Below are positions 1,571-10,788 of a DNA stretch of 64,000 nucleotides, piece after piece. A program made the translations under genes and the position numbers. The stretch is from Amycolatopsis jiangsuensis (GTDB lineage: Bacteria > Actinomycetota > Actinomycetes > Mycobacteriales > Pseudonocardiaceae): assembly GCF_014204865.1 (NCBI RefSeq), contig NZ_JACHMG010000001.1, positions 434,001 through 498,000 of the forward strand. The letters run 5' to 3'. Under the pieces are notes generated by a model. It saw only the letters and a program-made list of their open reading frames with translations, was not told where the DNA came from and ran no database searches. How positions within the stretch are numbered: the stretch's first letter is position 1; every line of letters starts with the position of its first letter.

Positions 1571-2794
1571 GTGACAGATACGAGCACGCAGACTGCGGCC
1601 TTGCCGCACCTCCGTGGCACGTCCGGCTTCCGGCGCATCACGCTGGCGCTGTTCGCCTCCGGGCTGGCGACCTTCACCACGCTCTACTGCGTGCAGGCGC
1701 TGCTGCCCGCGCTGAGCACCGATTTCGGCCTCAGCCCGGCGCAGGCCAGTCTCGCCGTCTCTCTCGGCACCGCGGGCCTGGCGGTCGGGGTCATCCCGCT
1801 GACCGCGCTGTCGGGCGTGGTCGGGCGCACGCCGGTGATGACGGCTTCGCTCTTCACCGCCGCAGTGCTCGGGGTGGCGCAGGCAGTGAGCCCGTCGTTC
1901 ACGGTGCTGCTCGTCTTGCGCGCCTTGCAGGGGCTCGCGCTCGCCGGATTGCAGGCGACCGCGATGTCGTACTTGTCCGAGGAGATCGACCGTCGTTCGC
2001 TCGGGACCGCGATGGGGCTGTACATCGCCGGAAACGGGATCGGGGGACTGGCCGGCCGGGTCATCGCCAGCCTGGTGCTGGACGTCTCGAACTGGCGGTG
2101 GGCACTCGCCGTCGTCGGCGTCGTGGCGCTGGGATGTGCGGTGGTGTTCCGCGTGAGCATCGTGCCGTCGGTGTTCTTCGAGCCGAGCCCGCCGCGGGTA
2201 CGGCACCTGGCCACGTCGATCGGACGGGCGTTCACCGACTCCGGGCTCGTCCGGCTTTTCGCCTGCGGCTTCCTGCTGATGGGCTGCTTCGTGACCGTCT
2301 ACAACTACCTGGGCTTCCGGCTGCTGGCACCGCCGTTCTCGCTGTCGCCGGTGCTCGTCGGCCTGGTCTTCGTGGTCTACCTGGCCGGCTCGGCCTCCTC
2401 GACGGTCGCGGGCCGGCTCGTGGACACCCTCGGCCGGCCCCGGATGCTGCCGGTCACCGTGGCGATCACGCTGGCCGGGCTCGCGTTGATGCTGGCGGAC
2501 AATCTCGTCCTCGTCGTGGCCGGGCTGGTCGTGACCACCGCAGGCTTCTTCGCCGCGCATTCGGTCGCCAGCGGCTGGGTCGGCCCGCGGGCGGCGACGC
2601 TGGGCGTGCAGGGCCCGGCGGTCTACCTGTTCTGCTACTACCTCGGGTCCAGCGTGGGCGGCTCGGTGGGCGGGCTCGCCTACAGCGCGGACGGCTGGCG
2701 CGGGGTTTCGCTCTACGCCGGCGCCTTCGTGCTCGCGGTCCTCGTCCTGGCCACCAGCCTGCGCAAACTCGCCCCCGCGAAGCCGCGCCTGTAG
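1571..2794 (+). CDS. MFS transporter, YnfM-like family
   Basis: Twelve-helix major facilitator superfamily protein of 407 residues, probably a proton-driven efflux carrier in the inner membrane. The GTG at 1571 (MTDTSTQTAALPHL) is chosen because it sits just before the first hydrophobic segment; an upstream in-frame start at 1511 would add an unlikely tail. Signature regions include the cytoplasmic-loop motif GVVGRTPVMTAS and SYLSEEIDRRSLGTAMGLYIAGNG, typical of the YnfM/arabinose-efflux branch. It ends 49 bp before a small ORF followed by tfuA and ycaO on the same strand. It could therefore export the product of that locus (inference), or be an unrelated drug exporter transcribed upstream. 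Confidence 0.8.
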   Translation: MTDTSTQTAALPHLRGTSGFRRITLALFASGLATFTTLYCVQALLPALSTDFGLSPAQASLAVSLGTAGLAVGVIPLTALSGVVGRTPVMTASLFTAAVLGVAQAVSPSFTVLLVLRALQGLALAGLQATAMSYLSEEIDRRSLGTAMGLYIAGNGIGGLAGRVIASLVLDVSNWRWALAVVGVVALGCAVVFRVSIVPSVFFEPSPPRVRHLATSIGRAFTDSGLVRLFACGFLLMGCFVTVYNYLGFRLLAPPFSLSPVLVGLVFVVYLAGSASSTVAGRLVDTLGRPRMLPVTVAITLAGLALMLADNLVLVVAGLVVTTAGFFAAHSVASGWVGPRAATLGVQGPAVYLFCYYLGSSVGGSVGGLAYSADGWRGVSLYAGAFVLAVLVLATSLRKLAPAKPRL

Positions 2795-2843
2795 TAGGCT
2801 CGCCCCCGACGCACGTGATCTTGCGGTCGACGAGGGAGAATCG

Positions 2844-2957
2844 ATGGACGACGTGATCGAGCAGATCAACAGCGCCCGGCGCGACGTGGTGGCGGCCGAG
2901 CTGTTCGACCCGTGGTCGGAGGTCGTCGTGATCCTCGGCGGCCGGGAGTTCAACTGA
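2844..2957 (+). CDS. Candidate RiPP precursor peptide (37 codons) upstream of tfuA-ycaO
   Basis: A 37-codon ORF beginning with ATG at 2844 and preceded by the purine-rich ribosome binding site GAGGGAGA about 3 bases upstream. The peptide starts MDDVIEQINSARRDVVAAEL (acidic, helix-like, leader type) and ends FDPWSEVVVILGGREFN, a hydrophobic valine-rich segment with Gly-Gly and an aromatic end. It lies between an MFS gene and the TfuA gene, all on one strand, with tfuA starting 38 bp later. Size, position and leader/core appearance match precursors of TfuA/YcaO-modified peptides. No homologue was recognised, so the precursor role is inferred from context. Alternatively it is a small structural or regulatory protein. 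Confidence 0.6.
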   Translation: MDDVIEQINSARRDVVAAELFDPWSEVVVILGGREFN

Positions 2958-2995
2958 TCGACGCCGATCGGCGGACCGGAGCGGCCGCCGCGGCC

Positions 2996-4321
2996 GTGCA
3001 CGTCTTCCTGGGCCCCACCCTGTCGGGCCCGCAAGCGTTGAGCTGCCTGCCCGAGGCGGTGCTGCACCCGCCGGTGGCACACGGCGACCTGCTGCGCCAC
3101 CGCTTCACCCGCGGTGACATGGTGGTGCTGGTCGACGGCTACTACCACCACAGTGCCTCGGTGCGGCACAAGGAAATCCTCGCGTTGCTGCAGGCCGGTG
3201 TGCAGGTGGTGGGCTGCGCCAGTATGGGCGCGATCCGCGCCGCCGAACTGCATCCGTACGGGATGCTCGGCCGCGGCGTGGTTTTCGAGCAGTACCGCGA
3301 CGGTGTGCTCGAGGGCGACGACGAGGTCGCCGTGATGCACGGCGAAGCGCCGGAGTACCGCAAGCTCACTGTGGCGCTGGTCGCCGTCCGGCACGCGGCC
3401 GAGGCTGCCCGCCGGGCCGGGGTGTTTTCCGCGGCAGCCGCGCGGTCCGTGGTCGAGGGCGCGGAAAGCTGCCACTACACCGAGCGCACCTGGCAGGCAC
3501 TGGAAGCCGGAAACGAGGATGTCGCCCGGCTGCGCGCCTTCCTGGCCCGCGATGCCCGCGCAGCCGACGTCAAGGCGGCGGACACCCTCGACACCCTCAC
3601 CGCGATCGCCCGCGGCGAGCTGCCGCCCGCCGATCCGGGCCGCTGGGCGGAGAACGACGACTGGCGCAACCGGTTCATCACCGAATGGCAGACCGACTTC
3701 GCGGTCGAACCGGTCGAGGGCACCGACGTGTCGGTGGGTGCCACGATCCGCTACCAGCAGCTCCATCTCGACGATTTCCCGGTGCGGTGGCGGCGGTACG
3801 TGCTGGGCCACCTGGCCGGACCGGGCCCGGCGGACGAGCTGCCCGCCCGCGCGCTGCGGATCGCGGCGCGCCACGGGCTGACCCCGGAGACCCTGACCGC
3901 CGGGCAGCTCGGGCACTGGCTCACCCCGGACGAGGTGGCGGCGCTGCCCCGCGAGGAGGCGCTGCTGCGGCTGCTCACCCGGTCCTACCAGCCGCAGTGC
4001 CCGGTCAGCGACCTCGCCAGGGCCGAACCCGGCGTGGCCGCCGACCCGGTGGCCCGGCGGGCGGTGGCCGAGGCGGAGGTCGTGAACGCCGAGGTCGCGT
4101 CGTGGGCCAGCGGCCAGCACGTCGGCCAGCTCAAGCCCGCTGTGCTGACCGGACACCTCGCGACGGTGTGGGGCGTGCCCCCAGACGACGCCCCCACGCT
4201 GCTGGCGGCGGCCAGGGACCGGGGATTCGGTTCGCTGGGCGATGCCGTCGAGGCGGTGCGGCCGTTCTTCCTGCGGAGCAGGTTTCTGACCGGGCGGGCC
4301 GGGCGGGGTGTGCGGTCGTGA
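2996..4321 (+). CDS. tfuA: TfuA-like protein (partner of YcaO in peptide backbone thioamidation)
   Basis: TfuA-domain protein of about 441 residues. In thioamide-forming RiPP systems and in methanogen McrA thioamidation, TfuA works with YcaO, probably helping deliver sulfur. The N-terminal core (about residues 1-120) shows HVFLGPTLS, GDMVVLVDGYYHHSASVRHK and the hallmark VGCASMGAIRAAEL. The C-terminal half is alpha-helical and Arg/Asp/Glu-rich without a recognised motif; longer TfuA proteins of this kind occur in Actinobacteria. The start is the GTG at 2996, directly before VHVFLGP; an earlier GTG at 2912 would overlap the small ORF. The stop overlaps the ycaO start as GTGA, implying translational coupling. 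Confidence 0.85.
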   Translation: MHVFLGPTLSGPQALSCLPEAVLHPPVAHGDLLRHRFTRGDMVVLVDGYYHHSASVRHKEILALLQAGVQVVGCASMGAIRAAELHPYGMLGRGVVFEQYRDGVLEGDDEVAVMHGEAPEYRKLTVALVAVRHAAEAARRAGVFSAAAARSVVEGAESCHYTERTWQALEAGNEDVARLRAFLARDARAADVKAADTLDTLTAIARGELPPADPGRWAENDDWRNRFITEWQTDFAVEPVEGTDVSVGATIRYQQLHLDDFPVRWRRYVLGHLAGPGPADELPARALRIAARHGLTPETLTAGQLGHWLTPDEVAALPREEALLRLLTRSYQPQCPVSDLARAEPGVAADPVARRAVAEAEVVNAEVASWASGQHVGQLKPAVLTGHLATVWGVPPDDAPTLLAAARDRGFGSLGDAVEAVRPFFLRSRFLTGRAGRGVRS

Positions 4322-5463
4322 CGGCTGGTGCGGCGAAGGTGTTCTTCGCGGGTACGCATCGGGTGCGGCGGCCGGAGGAGACGTGGGCTGTGGTGGAGCC
4401 GGTGCTGGCTCGTTACGGCGTGACCCGCGTCGCCGACGTCACCGGGCTCGACATTCTGGGCGTGCCGGTGATGATGGCGGTCCGCCCGCTGGCCCGTAGC
4501 CTCACCGTTTCCCAGGGGAAGGGCCAGACCGCTGTGCTGGCGCGGATTTCCGCCGCGATGGAGTCCATCGAGCTGTGGCACGCGGAGAACGTGCCGAACC
4601 CGCTCAGCCACCGCGCGACGCCGGCCGCGGAGCTCGGGCTGCCCTACGCCGTCGCCGGAGTCGTCACCGGGCCCGGCTCACTCGTCACCGAGCAGACCCC
4701 GCTCGACTGGGTGGCCGGGATCGACACCGGAAACGGCCGGGCGGTCCCGGTGCCGTGGCCGCTGGTCGGCCTGCCGCCGCCGGTACGGCCGTGGACACCG
4801 CCCGGTTTCCTCTGGAGCAGCAACGGCCTGGCCTCCGGCAACACCCGGGCGGAAGCGGCACTGCACGCGATCTACGAGATCATCGAACGCGACTCCCTCA
4901 GCCGGATCCCGCGTGGCGCCCCGTGGTCCTACGTCGATCCCGGCTCGCTCACCGACGACGTGTGCGCCCCGCTGATCGAGCGCGTGCGGGCGGCGGGCGC
5001 GACGGTGACGATCACGACGGTCGAGGGCCGGTTCGGCGTCCCGTGCTTCGCCGCTCGCGTGTGGAGCCCGGACTTTCCGGTCGCCTGCGGAGGATGGGGC
5101 ACGCACCTGGACCCGCACGTCGCCCTGTCCCGTGCGCTGACCGAGGCGGTGCAGAGCAGGCTGACCGGCATCGCGGGCAGCCGCGACGACCTGCCGGCGG
5201 TGTACCAGCGGGTGCGCCTGTCCACCGAGAACCTCGTCGAGCCGGACGCCCCCACGCTGTCCTGGGCCGAGTACGAGCCATCCGGACCGGGCGCCTTCGA
5301 CGACGTCGACACGGAGCTGGCGTGGCTGTCGGCACAGGTGCGGGAGGTCGCCGGTACCGGGCCGCTGCTGGTGGATCTCAGTACCACCGACGAATTCGCC
5401 GTGGTGAAGGTGACGATCCCGAGGACGTTGTTCGACGCCGAGTATCTGCACACCGGCCAATGA
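4318..5463 (+). CDS. ycaO: YcaO cyclodehydratase-like protein (TfuA-associated, thioamide-type)
   Basis: ATP-dependent YcaO enzyme of 381 residues that activates peptide backbone amides; with TfuA the predicted outcome is a thioamide rather than an azoline (family knowledge). ATP/Mg-binding segments are visible: SQGKGQTAVLARISAAMESI near residues 65-84 and SGNTRAEAALHAIYEIIERD near 173-192. A later block, LDPHVALSRALTEAVQS, also fits the family. The C-terminus lacks the proline-rich PxPxP tail of heterocycle-forming enzymes, consistent with a TfuA-linked YcaO. It starts at the GTG overlapping the tfuA stop and converges on a SARP regulator 42 bp downstream. A ribosomal S12 or McrA modification role cannot be excluded from sequence alone. 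Confidence 0.87.
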   Translation: MTAGAAKVFFAGTHRVRRPEETWAVVEPVLARYGVTRVADVTGLDILGVPVMMAVRPLARSLTVSQGKGQTAVLARISAAMESIELWHAENVPNPLSHRATPAAELGLPYAVAGVVTGPGSLVTEQTPLDWVAGIDTGNGRAVPVPWPLVGLPPPVRPWTPPGFLWSSNGLASGNTRAEAALHAIYEIIERDSLSRIPRGAPWSYVDPGSLTDDVCAPLIERVRAAGATVTITTVEGRFGVPCFAARVWSPDFPVACGGWGTHLDPHVALSRALTEAVQSRLTGIAGSRDDLPAVYQRVRLSTENLVEPDAPTLSWAEYEPSGPGAFDDVDTELAWLSAQVREVAGTGPLLVDLSTTDEFAVVKVTIPRTLFDAEYLHTGQ

Positions 5464-5505: not shown

Positions 5506-8500
5506 TCAAGCCGCGTCGCGCGGCGGAACCCGCGCCACGACCTTGCGCAGCATGGGATCCGCCTCGGCGCGTACGGCATCGACCACGGCGGCTGCCCGCT
5601 TCTGCTGGTCCGCGGCCGAGGCGGTGTCGCCGGCTGCGCGGTGCGCCGCGGCCGCGGCGCGCTGGGCACGAGCGCGATCGAGCCGGTAGCCGTACTCTTC
5701 CGCCAGCGCCTCCGCGAGACCGGCGTGGGTGCTCGCACCCGCCGGATCACCCTGGGCCAGCAGGACAGCGGACAGTTCGGCATGCGCCCGGCCGCGATCC
5801 CGGGGCAGGGCCTCGGCCAGCCCCCGCGTCGCGATCGCGGCGGCCTCGGACAGCTCGCCGGAGCGGCGATGGCCGGCCGCGAGACCACGGTCGATCGCCG
5901 GAGCCCAGTACGCCGCACCACCGCTGAGCGCCTGCGCCTGCGTGAAGTGCCGCATCGCGGCGTAGAGGTCGTCCCCGGCCAGCGCGGCGTCGCCAAGGAC
6001 GACGTGGGAACCGATGACCAGCCACACCGTTTCGGCCGCCTGGGCCCAGGCCAGGGTCCGGCCGCCGAGATCACGGGCGAGCACCGGAAGCCCTGCCTCC
6101 ACACAGGTTTCCGCCAGGTTGCGCACGATTTCGGTGACACCCGGGGAAAACTGCAGCTGCGCCCACCCGTCGAGCGCTTCGCCGAAGGCATACGCCGCGG
6201 AACGCAGCCGTCCCGCCCACAGGTCCCGGAAGGCGAACGCGCCGGCGCATCGCAGCTGCAGGTGCGGCAGCCCTTGCCGGCGGGCCAGCTCCTGCGCCTG
6301 TTCCAGGTTCGCCGAGGCCTCGCGCACCCGGCCGAGGTGGATCCGGGTCATCCCGAGATCGAACAGCGTGGTGCTGCGCCCCGCGGTGTCCCCGCCCAGC
6401 CGCAGCGACTGTTCCAAGTGGACGATCGACTCGTCGAGCCTGCCGAGTTCACCGTAGATCGAACCGAGCCCGGTGTGTGCCCGCGCCTCACCGACGGGAT
6501 CGCCGGACTCCCGGAACAGCCGCGCCGCCTCGAGCATATGCGTTTCGGACTCGCTGTACCGGGCGTGGTGGAACTGCATGCGGCTGAGGGCGCGGTGGAT
6601 GGCGGCCTGCCCGGGGCGGTCGCCGGCGTGCTGGGCCGCGGTGAGCGCGGCGGTGAACGCGGACTGCCAGAGCGAATCCTGCCGGCTGCGCTGCAGGTAG
6701 GGGAGCAGGGCGTAGGCGAGTTCCCAGACCGCCACCCCGGCCGGACGCGCGCACACGAGGGCGACCAGGTTTTCCGCCTCGGTCTCCAGCCAGTCCAGCG
6801 CCGCGGCGGCGTCCGGCCACGGCGGCGGCCCGTCCGGCGCGGCACCGAGCAGATGCGCGTCCGGGTAGAGCAGCCGGCAGGCCGTGTAGGTCCGCTGCCG
6901 GTACCAGCCGGCCAGCCGTGCCGGCGCGGCCTCCCGCTCGCCGGCCGGATCCTGGTCCCGGGCCCGCTCCGCGGCGAACTCCTTGATCAGATCGTGGAAG
7001 TGGAACCGGCCGGGCGCGCCGGCGCCGATCAGGTTCGTCGCGGCCAGCCGGTCGAGCATGCGGTGCGCGGCGGCCGGTTCGGTGCCGGTCACCGCGGCCG
7101 CGGCGAGGTCGTCGAAGTCCGGACCGGGGATCGCGCTCAGTGTCCGGAAGAACTGCGAAAGGGCGGGTTTCACGGTGCTGTAGGAGACATCGAAGGCGAG
7201 CCGCACGGCGGCCTGGTCGTCGCCCTCGATCTCCATCGCGTCGAGCTTGGCGCCGGGCCGCAGCCGGGCCACGTACTCGGCGATGGACCGGCTTGCCGCG
7301 CCGGCCAGATTGGTCGAGGCGATCCGCAGCCCCAGCGGCAGATAGCCGCACGCCGCGGCGAACGCGCCGGCCGCGCCGGGTTCCGCGGCGACCCGCTCGG
7401 CCCCGACGATGTTGCCCACCATCGCCCGGGCCTCCTGCGCGGACACGACCCCGACCGGCAGCCGCCGCGCGCCGTCCAGGGCGACCAGGCCGCGCAGTTC
7501 GTCCCGGCTCGTGATCAGCACCGCGCAGGACGGATCGGACGGCAGCAGCGGGCGGACGTGCTCGGGGCTCGCCGCGTTGTCCAGGACCATCAGCACGCGC
7601 CGCCCGCTCAGCAGGGACCGCAGCAGTGCGCTCTGCTCGTCGATCTCGTGCGGGATGCGTTCGGCGGCGATGCCGAGCGCACGCAGGAACCGGGCGAGCG
7701 CGTCGGTCGCCGCCAGCGGCGGACTGGTCGAATAGCCGCGCAGGTTGACGTGCAGCACGCCGTCCGGGAACTCGCCCCGTAGCTCGTGCCCGGCGTGCGT
7801 GGCCAGCGCGGTCTTGCCCACCCCGGGCGGCCCGGCGAGCACCACCACCGGCACCGCCAGCCGGTTGCGGCCCGGCCGGGTGACCAGCTCCCGGATCGCG
7901 GCCAGCAGTCCGGTGCGGCCGACGAAGTCGGCGACGTCGGCGGGCAGCTGGAACGGCGCGGTCCAGCCCGCGGCCTTCCCGGACGCGTCCGTGCCGCCGT
8001 CGTTGAGCAGGATCTCCTGATGCAGCCGGCGCAGTGCCTCGCCGGGGTCGAGGCCCAGCTCGTCGCGCAGCAGCACGGTGACCCGGCGGTACACCGCCAG
8101 CGCGTCGGCCTGCCTGCCGGACCGGTCCAGCGCGAGCATCAGCTGAGCCCAGAACCGTTCCCGCAGGCGGTTCTCCTCGGTGAGGGTGTGCAGCGTACCG
8201 ATCACCTCGGCGTGCCGGCCCAGCTCCAGCTCCAGGTCCACCAGCCGTTCCCAGGCCCGCAGCCGCTCCTCGGCCAGCCGGGTGGCCTCCTGTGCCTGGA
8301 TCAGCTCGGACGGGACGTCGGCCAGCGGGGTACCCCGCCAGAGCGCCAGCGCGGCGCGCAGCTCGGTGGCTTCGGCCGCCGGGTCGGCCGCCGCACGGGC
8401 CCGCTCCGCCGCGCCGACCCGGGCGTGGAACCGGCCGAGGTCCAGCATGTCCGGGGTGATCGCGAGCAGGTACCCCGGCGGCTGGGTGCGGATCAGCACC

Positions 8501-8748
8501 CCGGCTTCGCCCAGCACGTTGCGCAACCGCATCACGTAGGCCTGGGCCGCGTTCCGGGCGCCCCGCGGCGGCTCGCCGTTCCACAACCGGTCGATCAGCT
8601 CCTCGACCGACACCACGTGGTTCGCGCCCAGCAGCAGGGTGGCGAGCGCGATGCGGGTCTTGGCCGAGCCCAGCGGGGCCGGGGCGCCGCCGACGACCGC
8701 GGACAGCGGCCCGAGCACGCCGAATCCGGGAGTCCGGGTACCGGTCAC
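5506..8748 (-). CDS. AfsR/SARP-family transcriptional regulator (BTAD, NB-ARC, TPR)
   Basis: Large Streptomyces antibiotic regulatory protein of 1080 residues. An N-terminal OmpR-like DNA-binding domain (ALATLLLGANHVVSVEELID, residues about 5-95) is followed by a bacterial transcriptional activation domain (about 95-245). Next is an NB-ARC ATPase with Walker A GPPGVGKTAL near 306-315 and LMVLDNA as Walker B, then a C-terminal half of TPR-like repeats (about 690-1070). The GTG at 8748 is preferred over the GTG at 8763 because GGAGGTGAG lies just upstream of it. SARPs usually activate specialised-metabolite clusters. Being convergent with the TfuA/YcaO set, it is a candidate pathway regulator, though the target is not visible in the sequence. 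Confidence 0.88.
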   Translation of the reverse strand: MTGTRTPGFGVLGPLSAVVGGAPAPLGSAKTRIALATLLLGANHVVSVEELIDRLWNGEPPRGARNAAQAYVMRLRNVLGEAGVLIRTQPPGYLLAITPDMLDLGRFHARVGAAERARAAADPAAEATELRAALALWRGTPLADVPSELIQAQEATRLAEERLRAWERLVDLELELGRHAEVIGTLHTLTEENRLRERFWAQLMLALDRSGRQADALAVYRRVTVLLRDELGLDPGEALRRLHQEILLNDGGTDASGKAAGWTAPFQLPADVADFVGRTGLLAAIRELVTRPGRNRLAVPVVVLAGPPGVGKTALATHAGHELRGEFPDGVLHVNLRGYSTSPPLAATDALARFLRALGIAAERIPHEIDEQSALLRSLLSGRRVLMVLDNAASPEHVRPLLPSDPSCAVLITSRDELRGLVALDGARRLPVGVVSAQEARAMVGNIVGAERVAAEPGAAGAFAAACGYLPLGLRIASTNLAGAASRSIAEYVARLRPGAKLDAMEIEGDDQAAVRLAFDVSYSTVKPALSQFFRTLSAIPGPDFDDLAAAAVTGTEPAAAHRMLDRLAATNLIGAGAPGRFHFHDLIKEFAAERARDQDPAGEREAAPARLAGWYRQRTYTACRLLYPDAHLLGAAPDGPPPWPDAAAALDWLETEAENLVALVCARPAGVAVWELAYALLPYLQRSRQDSLWQSAFTAALTAAQHAGDRPGQAAIHRALSRMQFHHARYSESETHMLEAARLFRESGDPVGEARAHTGLGSIYGELGRLDESIVHLEQSLRLGGDTAGRSTTLFDLGMTRIHLGRVREASANLEQAQELARRQGLPHLQLRCAGAFAFRDLWAGRLRSAAYAFGEALDGWAQLQFSPGVTEIVRNLAETCVEAGLPVLARDLGGRTLAWAQAAETVWLVIGSHVVLGDAALAGDDLYAAMRHFTQAQALSGGAAYWAPAIDRGLAAGHRRSGELSEAAAIATRGLAEALPRDRGRAHAELSAVLLAQGDPAGASTHAGLAEALAEEYGYRLDRARAQRAAAAAHRAAGDTASAADQQKRAAAVVDAVRAEADPMLRKVVARVPPRDAA

Positions 8749-8790
8749 CCACTCACCTCCCACCTGCTCGAGCCGGACGTGCCGGTGCGC

Positions 8791-9831
8791 TCAGCGGATC
8801 ACCCGGCCACCGAGGATGATCCTCTTCGGGTGGGCCAGTACGCCAGGGGAGGAGGTCGGGTCTGCCTCATAGACCACCAGGTCTGCCGGTGCGCCGTCGG
8901 CCAGGCCCGGTTCGCCCAGCCACGCGCGTGCCGTCCAGGCCGCCGCGCCGACCGCGGCTTCGGCCGGCAGCCCGGCCTCGGCCAGCCAGCCGACCTCGGT
9001 CGCGATGTTGCCGTAGGGCGGGCAATCGGTGCCGGCCAGCACGGTGACCCCGGCCTCGTAGGCGGCCCGGACGATGGCCGGCATGCCTTCCCAGCCCTCG
9101 AGCACCCAGTCGCGCAGCGGGCCCGGCGCGCGCTCGCGGGCCCGGCCGGCGATTCCCGCGAACGTGGTGAACGTGGGGACCAGCGCCATGCCCTGCGCCG
9201 CCATCCGGTCGAGCAGCGTGACGTCGAAGTGCATCCCGTGTTCGATGCTGTCCGCGCCCGCGAGCACCGCGTGGCGGCCGCCCTCGGCGGTCTGGCAGTG
9301 CACCGCGACCCGGCCGCCGATCTCGTGCACCGCCGCCACCGCCGCGGTGAGCGCACCGAGCGAGGTGGACGCCTCACCGGGCTCCCAGTCGCCGATGATC
9401 TTGCACCAGCCCGAGCCGGCTTTGGTCTCTTCGACCGCGGCCTCGGCCAGCTGGTGCTCGCCGACCTCCCGTCCGTAACCCGGGTAGAAGCAGCCCTCCG
9501 GCGCCAGCCACCGCCCGGCCGAGCGGATCCGCGGCAATGCCAGATCCTGCTCGGCCCAGGCGGGAATCCGGACTGTCGAGCCCGGCACCCGGACCAGCAG
9601 CACGCCGGCGTCGCGGTGGTCTTCGAGGTGGCGGCGCAGCTTCGCGTCGTCGAAGGGATCCGACGGTCCTTCCGAACCCGGATGCGTGTGCATGTCGACC
9701 AGGCCGGGCAGGATCCAGCCGCCGTCGGACACGAGTTCGGTGCAGTCGCCTTCGCGCAGCCGGTCGCCGTCCACCACGAAGGTGCGGACCGCGCGGTCGG
9801 GCAAGGTGATCCCGCGAACCCCGAAAACCAC
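8791..9831 (-). CDS. Amidohydrolase family protein
   Basis: Metal-dependent hydrolase of the amidohydrolase superfamily, 346 residues, cytoplasmic, substrate unknown. The TIM-barrel metal ligands can be followed: DMHTHPG (His48, His50), a lysine at GWCKIIGD (about 144), VAVHCQ (about His178), SIEHGMHFD (about His198) and LAGTDCPPYG (about Asp269). The N- and C-terminal strands form the usual small beta domain (WILPGLVD, RIILGGRVIR). The start is the GTG at 9831 with no strong ribosome binding site. It is transcribed toward the SARP gene, 42 bp from its start, so the two may be co-transcribed. Relatives include imidazolonepropionase-like and prolidase-like enzymes; a more specific name is not justified. 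Confidence 0.8.
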   Translation of the reverse strand: MVFGVRGITLPDRAVRTFVVDGDRLREGDCTELVSDGGWILPGLVDMHTHPGSEGPSDPFDDAKLRRHLEDHRDAGVLLVRVPGSTVRIPAWAEQDLALPRIRSAGRWLAPEGCFYPGYGREVGEHQLAEAAVEETKAGSGWCKIIGDWEPGEASTSLGALTAAVAAVHEIGGRVAVHCQTAEGGRHAVLAGADSIEHGMHFDVTLLDRMAAQGMALVPTFTTFAGIAGRARERAPGPLRDWVLEGWEGMPAIVRAAYEAGVTVLAGTDCPPYGNIATEVGWLAEAGLPAEAAVGAAAWTARAWLGEPGLADGAPADLVVYEADPTSSPGVLAHPKRIILGGRVIR

Positions 9832-10299: not shown

Positions 10300-10788
10300 A
10301 TGTCGGTCACCGATGGACTGCTCGAGAACAACGCCGGGTACGCGGCGGAGTTCTCCGGGCCGCTGCCGTTGCCACCCGCCAAGCACGTCGCCGTGCTCGC
10401 CTGCATGGACGCCCGGCTCAACGTGTACGGCGCGCTCGGCCTCGGGGAAGGGGAGGCGCACGTCATCCGCAACGCGGGAGGTGTGGTCACCGAGGACGCG
10501 ATCCGTTCGCTGGCGATCAGCCAGCGGTTGCTCGGTACCGAGGAGATCGTCCTGATCCACCACACCGACTGCGGCATGCTGACCTTCACCGACGACGAGT
10601 TCAAGAAGTCGATCCAGGAGGACGTCGGCGTGAAGCCCGCCTGGGCGGCCGAGGCGTTCGGGGACCTGGAGGCCGACGTCCGCCAGTCGATCGCCCGGAT
10701 CCGGACGAGCCCGTTCCTGCCGCGGAAGGACTCGGTCCGCGGCTTCGTCTTCGACGTCGCCACCGGCAAGCTGAACGAGGTCAGCTGA
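10300..10788 (+). CDS. Beta-class carbonic anhydrase
   Basis: Zinc enzyme of 162 residues interconverting CO2 and bicarbonate in the cytoplasm. The zinc ligands are recognisable as Cys35 and the Asp37/Arg39 dyad in ACMDAR, and His88 and Cys91 in HHTDCGM; IRNAGG is the conserved substrate-side loop. The length matches the short type II beta class found in Actinobacteria. The ATG at 10300 is preceded by GGGAGG with good spacing. The 3' end overlaps by 8 bp the stop of the STAS-like gene on the other strand, so the two are convergent and share a terminator zone. Confidence 0.92.
   Translation: MSVTDGLLENNAGYAAEFSGPLPLPPAKHVAVLACMDARLNVYGALGLGEGEAHVIRNAGGVVTEDAIRSLAISQRLLGTEEIVLIHHTDCGMLTFTDDEFKKSIQEDVGVKPAWAAEAFGDLEADVRQSIARIRTSPFLPRKDSVRGFVFDVATGKLNEVS

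Follow-up and report, generated by a model that had tools for sequence, protein, structure and literature searches.

What does the TfuA-YcaO enzyme pair encoded in Amycolatopsis jiangsuensis modify? We addressed this question in a 64,000-nucleotide stretch of the genome (assembly GCF_014204865.1, contig NZ_JACHMG010000001.1, positions 434,001 to 498,000 of the forward strand; hereafter the window), in which a 37-codon open reading frame (ORF) precedes adjacent tfuA and ycaO genes. We propose that this small ORF probably encodes a precursor peptide and defines a new small family of peptides modified by YcaO and TfuA, an assignment drawn from genome sequence. The position of the peptide gene upstream of tfuA and the surrounding gene order are identical in five genomes.

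A five-gene cassette

All-against-all locus comparison recovered a common gene order in the window and in loci L033, L032, L118 and L119: the peptide gene, tfuA and ycaO on one strand converge with a SARP regulator gene and an amidohydrolase gene on the other. By this comparison, the five genes form a real cassette that is conserved as one unit across five genomes. The window contains the following features.

2792..2800, plus strand: putative -10 region (TAGTAGGCT) of a separate peptide-operon promoter, overlapping the stop codon of the MFS gene
2832..2838, plus strand: ribosome binding site (GAGGGAG) of the small ORF, from the sequence
2844..2957, plus strand: predicted precursor peptide gene, 37 amino acids (ATG at 2844, stop at 2957; profile, leave-one-out, cross-pair and dN/dS evidence)
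2996..4321, plus strand: tfuA, long form (PF07812, E 4.2e-41)
4318..5463, plus strand: ycaO (PF02624, E 2.6e-59)
5506..8763, minus strand: convergent gene for a large SARP regulator, 1085 amino acids, with DNA-binding, BTAD, NB-ARC and TPR parts (Pfam)
8791..9831, minus strand: amidohydrolase gene, 346 amino acids, putative trimming enzyme (PF01979)

The likely start of tfuA is the GTG at 2996, 38 bases after the stop codon of the small ORF; an alternative GTG at 2912 falls within the small ORF. The tfuA and ycaO genes overlap by GTGA (4318-4321). The amidohydrolase and SARP genes share a strand, the former 27 bp upstream of the latter, and are probably in one operon. Apart from these and the other cassette genes, the five loci have no gene in common at an equivalent position.

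A preliminary description of this sequence had proposed the small ORF as the substrate of a minimal system with an MFS exporter. Its observations on the sequence were borne out by sequence and Pfam analysis: the 37-codon ORF with its ribosome binding site lies between the MFS gene and tfuA, tfuA and ycaO overlap by GTGA and the SARP gene is convergent. The core idea stands, and the gene list required revision at both ends. The description had found no other tailoring gene and thus missed the amidohydrolase, which is conserved in all five loci and is encoded upstream of the SARP gene, beyond the part of the locus that it covered. It also over-included the MFS gene. Pfam confirmed the MFS identity of this gene. 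None of the other four loci contains a match to its protein (E <= 1e-5), nor do the loci have any upstream gene in common at a corresponding position (E <= 1e-8), so we rejected the MFS protein as the cassette exporter. By eye, a minus-strand ORF 0.75-2 kb upstream in L032 resembles another MFS transporter, and minus-strand ORFs upstream in L033 and L118 both resemble small VOC-type proteins.

A family of candidate precursor peptides

The ORFs of the five cassette genomes have 37-41 codons, begin with MD and end 15-38 bases before the tfuA match. G-rich sites precede the ATG in the four relatives as in the window. The common pattern is MDxLIExI...(D/E)(L/F)FDPW followed by a variable tail. In the window ORF, residues 1 to approximately 18 are leader-like, FDPW occupies residues 21-24 and the variable tail spans residues 25-37. 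This ORF contains no Cys, no Thr and only two Ser; a single Ser and no Cys or Thr follow FDPW. The first part and FDPW are kept, with a variable tail, in four of the five ORFs. The remaining ORF, that of L032, lacks FDPW and retains only scattered leader positions.

A profile built from the five ORFs (A2) was searched in 390 genomes of the family. It gave five strong matches (E 1.4e-21 to 3.2e-18), exactly the cassette genomes, with the next best match at E 0.0057. Matches in 16 more genomes (E 0.0057-0.049) lie inside open frames of 182-1138 amino acids and were taken as chance. Since members match their own profile by construction, each ORF was left out in turn; four of them were recovered (window, E 4.8e-17; L033, E 1.3e-16; L118, E 1.2e-13; L119, E 8.1e-15), and the L032 ORF was not recovered by the profile of the other four (E 7.3). 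These values lean on close sisters, as the ORFs include two close pairs, and we therefore crossed the pairs. The window and L033 profile retrieved L119 (E 2.7e-5) and L118 (E 9.5e-5), and the L118 and L119 profile retrieved L033 (E 8.4e-5) and the window (E 0.0012), in each case ahead of all other of 32215 frames (next frames at 0.61 and 8 across the two pair searches).

Codon comparison (NG86) of the window and L033 ORFs over 37 codons gave a dN of 0.115 and a dS of 0.334. The corresponding values for residues 1-26 of L118 and L119 were 0.075 and 0.647. Within the compass of such short sequences, this pattern indicates purifying selection on the small ORF, which these comparisons identify as a conserved coding gene. 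Membership of the L032 ORF would rest on its position, its length, its flanking orthologues and a shuffle test, in which no more than one of 20000 shuffles attained the ungapped score of residues 2-26 against each of the other ORFs.

The small ORF has no match in Pfam or NCBIfam, the latter including the thioviridamide precursor model NF033415, and a 41-residue relative searched against 5.77 billion proteins matched only its own entry, a protein without a name. The bottromycin precursor model NF033414 matched neither the small ORF nor anything else in the genome, and gave no match in control genomes either. A search of the whole genome with NF033415 gave no hit at E <= 0.001; in a control set of 14 genomes, none of them a named producer, a single genome matched, below the cut-off.

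Distribution of the cassette

We identified tfuA matches at E <= 0.001 in 30 of 80 genomes of the genus, and at E <= 1e-60 in nine of the 390 family genomes. At the level of the order, three of 397 genomes, each of them a member of this genus, had a match at E <= 1e-80; this evenly drawn set evidently did not include the four other cassette genomes. TfuA matches were found in 54 plasmid records, none of which covers 80% of the query. A scan of a species-level genome collection with a YcaO alignment contributed 59 loci. In total, 82 loci were compared, of which L043, L071 and L115 lack either a tfuA or a ycaO match and were left unranked. L059 and L118 represent one locus and entered the count a single time, as did other duplicate pairs. 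Some of the loci are short or ended by contig ends, and absences hold for the available stretch.

Comparison of upstream regions among near tfuA relatives showed that all five genomes of this tfuA-ycaO-SARP type keep the small ORF. No such ORF was seen in the other four family genomes with a TfuA match at E <= 1e-60 (L034, L035, L120 and L121). This distribution agrees with the proposal of the preliminary description that the ORF is the likely substrate. That description had made the idea depend on conservation of the ORF in relatives, and the ORF passes: strong matches occur in five of 390 genomes, those with this tfuA-ycaO type. L034, L035, L120 and L121 have no SARP match adjoining ycaO and no amidohydrolase match in the sequence stretch compared; in L120, a weaker SARP match (39%) lies at a distance of 9.9 kb. 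L034, from the same genus, is a TfuA-YcaO cluster of another kind, and no related peptide was seen there. The gene directly upstream of its tfuA, ending approximately 45 bases before the tfuA match, resembles phytanoyl-CoA dioxygenase by eye.

TfuA and YcaO

The window YcaO is the sole YcaO match in the 8.05 Mb genome, and its best solved relative by sequence is MJ1094 (6pe3). TfuA has two parts. Residues 1-211 form the TfuA domain, which is intact by fold. Among 38 TfuAs, K59 is fully conserved and S76 almost fully so (alignment A3, 38 of 57 listed TfuA frames; alignment A5 comprises 35 of those 38). A Ser-Lys pair that releases sulfide has been described (PMC13185837), to which S76 and K59 may correspond.

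Residues 212-434 (window 3629-4297), which distinguish this long-form actinobacterial TfuA, are confidently predicted to form a helical domain, with no PDB relative detected. We looked in this half for a RiPP (ribosomally synthesized and post-translationally modified peptide) recognition element, a PqqD-like winged-helix domain that binds leaders, and found none. Confidently predicted and lacking a detected relative, the C-terminal half is a candidate for the leader-binding component still missing from clusters of this type. WD-40 matches of TfuA (2ymu and others) reflect a short local resemblance at a TGH..VWGV stretch that is missing from the compared relatives, and were set aside as chance. 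The tfuA gene of L033 contains an in-frame array (7673-7911) of 26.6 copies of a 9-base unit encoding Gly-Ala-Gly (100% matches), as well as further 84-base repeats; the repeats fall in the region that joins the TfuA domain to the C-terminal half.

The amidohydrolase

The window amidohydrolase is 58-80% identical to the proteins of the four other cassettes. Among the 82 loci (tblastn, E <= 1e-5), it was matched in six rows representing five distinct genomes, all with an adjacent convergent SARP gene, and had no match in any compared tfuA-ycaO locus lacking such a gene. The protein has the PF01979 metal-ligand pattern HxH, Lys, His, His, Asp. H48, H50, K144, H178, H198 and D269, which we take from the superfamily to be the metal ligands, are invariant in seven aligned sequences (five cassettes and two paralogues). 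The list of solved relatives by profile continues, after the nearest, with other amidohydrolases, including the arginine carboxypeptidase 3mtw (6.9e-20).

Linkage of amidohydrolase and YcaO genes probably recurs beyond this set. We infer this from contig sizes, which speak for a shared contig rather than adjacency: comparing 120 listed of 747 amidohydrolase relatives with 120 listed of 676 YcaO relatives, 15 contigs coincide by size, compared with 0.47 on average once the sizes were randomly jittered. The L119 genome accounts for one of these coincidences.

The SARP regulator

SARP orthologues in the four other cassettes are 54-79% identical to that of the window. The cassette protein combines DNA-binding, BTAD, NB-ARC and TPR parts in approximately 1000 residues and so agrees with the definition of a large SARP (PMC10972967). 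It matches the NCBIfam AfsR model below the cut-off. Its NB-ARC-TPR part matches the HaaT model (243.5 of 1125) and the FxSxx_TPR model (87.8 of 300), far below the curated cut-offs. In this part it resembles the FxSxx and HaaA RiPP systems, which have other maturases and precursors than those of the cassette. The genus was searched for further SARP copies, with at most nine candidates scored per genome. At L162 (8659-11895), in a genome of the genus, a SARP gene whose product is 57% identical has no peptide, tfuA, ycaO or amidohydrolase match in the surrounding 19.5 kb.

Transcription signals and the flanking region

The sequence TAGTAGGCT may mark the start of a separate transcript for the peptide operon. 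Identical letters occur in L033 at a similar distance, and the site is degenerate in L118, L119 and L032. A sigma-70 scan did not report it. Between 2600 and 5700, we found one promoter-like site, inside ycaO, and no terminator-like site. Beyond the cassette, a plus-strand ORF at window 10301-10788 resembles a beta-carbonic anhydrase gene by its motifs.

Proposed pathway and alternatives

In the pathway that we propose, TfuA would supply sulfide and, together with YcaO, would add one or more backbone thioamides to the peptide. Thioamidation is inferred here from the enzyme pair; YcaO-TfuA enzymes of another system have been reported to thioamidate a precursor in vitro (+15.94 Da; PMC13174530). 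The N-terminal MDxLIExI... segment would serve as the recognition leader, and the modified residues would lie at or after (D/E)(L/F)FDPW. The amidohydrolase may trim the product in a manner analogous to PurAH/BotAH, the enzyme that cleaves off the follower peptide of bottromycin, itself a YcaO product (PMC10885120). The SARP would turn the operon on, and general cell enzymes would perform the remaining cleavage or export.

Several observations weigh against this proposal. The L032 ORF is matched by neither pair profile and on its own matches none of the other four ORFs, so that strong sequence evidence for the ORF family is limited to four of five ORFs in two close pairs. The nearest solved relative of the amidohydrolase by profile is Xaa-Pro dipeptidase 2qs8 (7e-28), and its profile match to the bottromycin enzyme 6i5s is weak (E 2.7e-5); the comparison argues against a BotAH orthologue. 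Two other genomes of 394 in the class encode an amidohydrolase with 61-63% identity and have no tfuA or ycaO within approximately 9 kb. All 80 genus genomes encode some amidohydrolase relative, most with 36-49% identity, which counts against exclusivity. Weaker SARP matches occur near other TfuA loci (e.g. L100, L112, L114 and L116), and SARP alone is thus no specific mark. Finally, the five loci have neither a dedicated leader protease nor an exporter in common.

Two other explanations were considered. The small ORF could be a regulatory leader of tfuA-ycaO (a translated upstream ORF or attenuator), with the true substrate elsewhere or a cellular protein; we consider this improbable. Its shortness, its place directly upstream and its lack of Cys and Thr, with two Ser only, would suit such a leader, and some YcaO-TfuA and YcaO enzymes do act on cellular proteins, namely McrA (PMC5589413) and uL16 (PMC13063428). 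The ORF is, however, conserved at the amino-acid level with synonymous change, contains an internal motif that is conserved, not a string of identical codons, and has no Rfam match at gathering scores. A housekeeping target fits poorly with strong matches in just five of 390 genomes, all with this tfuA-ycaO pair. Nor is it likely that the peptide is modified otherwise, with YcaO making an amidine or azoline, the amidohydrolase taking part in that chemistry as in bottromycin and TfuA in an unusual role. The amidohydrolase is indeed conserved in five of five loci, and YcaO with an amidohydrolase is the bottromycin pairing (PMC5103208; PMC10885120). Against this chemistry stand the intact TfuA fold with its invariant K59 and nearly invariant S76, and the composition of the window peptide after FDPW, with a single Ser and neither Cys nor Thr.

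A further idea concerns the role of the product. It is possible, if doubtful, that the modified peptide is a ligand of the neighboring SARP rather than an exported antibiotic, the amidohydrolase-trimmed, thioamidated peptide being sensed by the NB-ARC-TPR part. Consistent with this idea, the SARP is linked in five of five loci and no exporter, leader protease or other shared gene is conserved. The SARP NosP of nosiheptide responds to metabolites, and the title of a reference listed in PMC10972967 names precursor-derived peptidyl ligands; by this precedent, a peptide-sensing role of the cassette SARP is conceivable. Points on the other side are that cluster-situated SARPs are common as plain activators and that another of the 80 genus genomes carries a SARP copy at 57-58% identity and lacks the cassette.

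Relation to known systems

At the level of genes, the cassette has the marks of a YcaO-TfuA RiPP cluster. Adjacent tfuA and ycaO genes are present and a conserved small precursor gene lies nearby, in five of five loci by position and profile and in four of five by the left-out and cross-pair searches. Adjacent tfuA, ycaO and a small precursor gene are likewise found in YcaO-TfuA thioamidated RiPPs (thioviridamide-like, thiovarsolins, thioamidated thiopeptides and the std cluster). The cassette differs from these in a precursor without a Pfam or NCBIfam match, a long TfuA and the absence of a further gene shared in place. Bottromycin clusters (BotAH/PurAH) also combine YcaO, a metal amidohydrolase and a small precursor, whereas the cassette has TfuA, a single YcaO and an amidohydrolase that is distant from 6i5s. 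In the cassette, it is the N-terminal part of the precursor that is conserved, whereas bottromycin has a follower (PMC10885120). The streptamidine family resembles the cassette in its actinobacterial standalone YcaO, its hydrolase gene (amiC) and its small precursor, which frequently goes unannotated; its conserved genes, as given in the available part of PMC8442711, include four iron-transporter-like and two ABC transporter genes, with TfuA unlisted.

Previous surveys reported 229 TfuA proteins and 74 peptide networks (PMC6511847), and 613 cluster families and 797 precursor families (PMC8120280). The words SARP and amidohydrolase are absent from the main texts of both papers. We judged the family to be new against these main texts, and the peptide may already be an unnamed entry in their networks. 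In the open-licence literature searched, to the extent that its texts were available, no paper pairs TfuA-YcaO with an amidohydrolase; neither did we find one on TfuA with SARP, the listed co-occurrence being unrelated abstracts.

Implications

If the modified peptide were sensed by the SARP, the peptide, two modifying enzymes, a trimmer and a sensor would constitute a self-contained signaling circuit. The known products of YcaO-TfuA pairs are few; PMC13174530 lists four classes, to which it adds a fifth. Conservation across five genomes here delimits a candidate precursor, the enzyme pair that would modify it, a probable trimming enzyme and a regulator, so the substrate question raised by this locus becomes testable with three genes.

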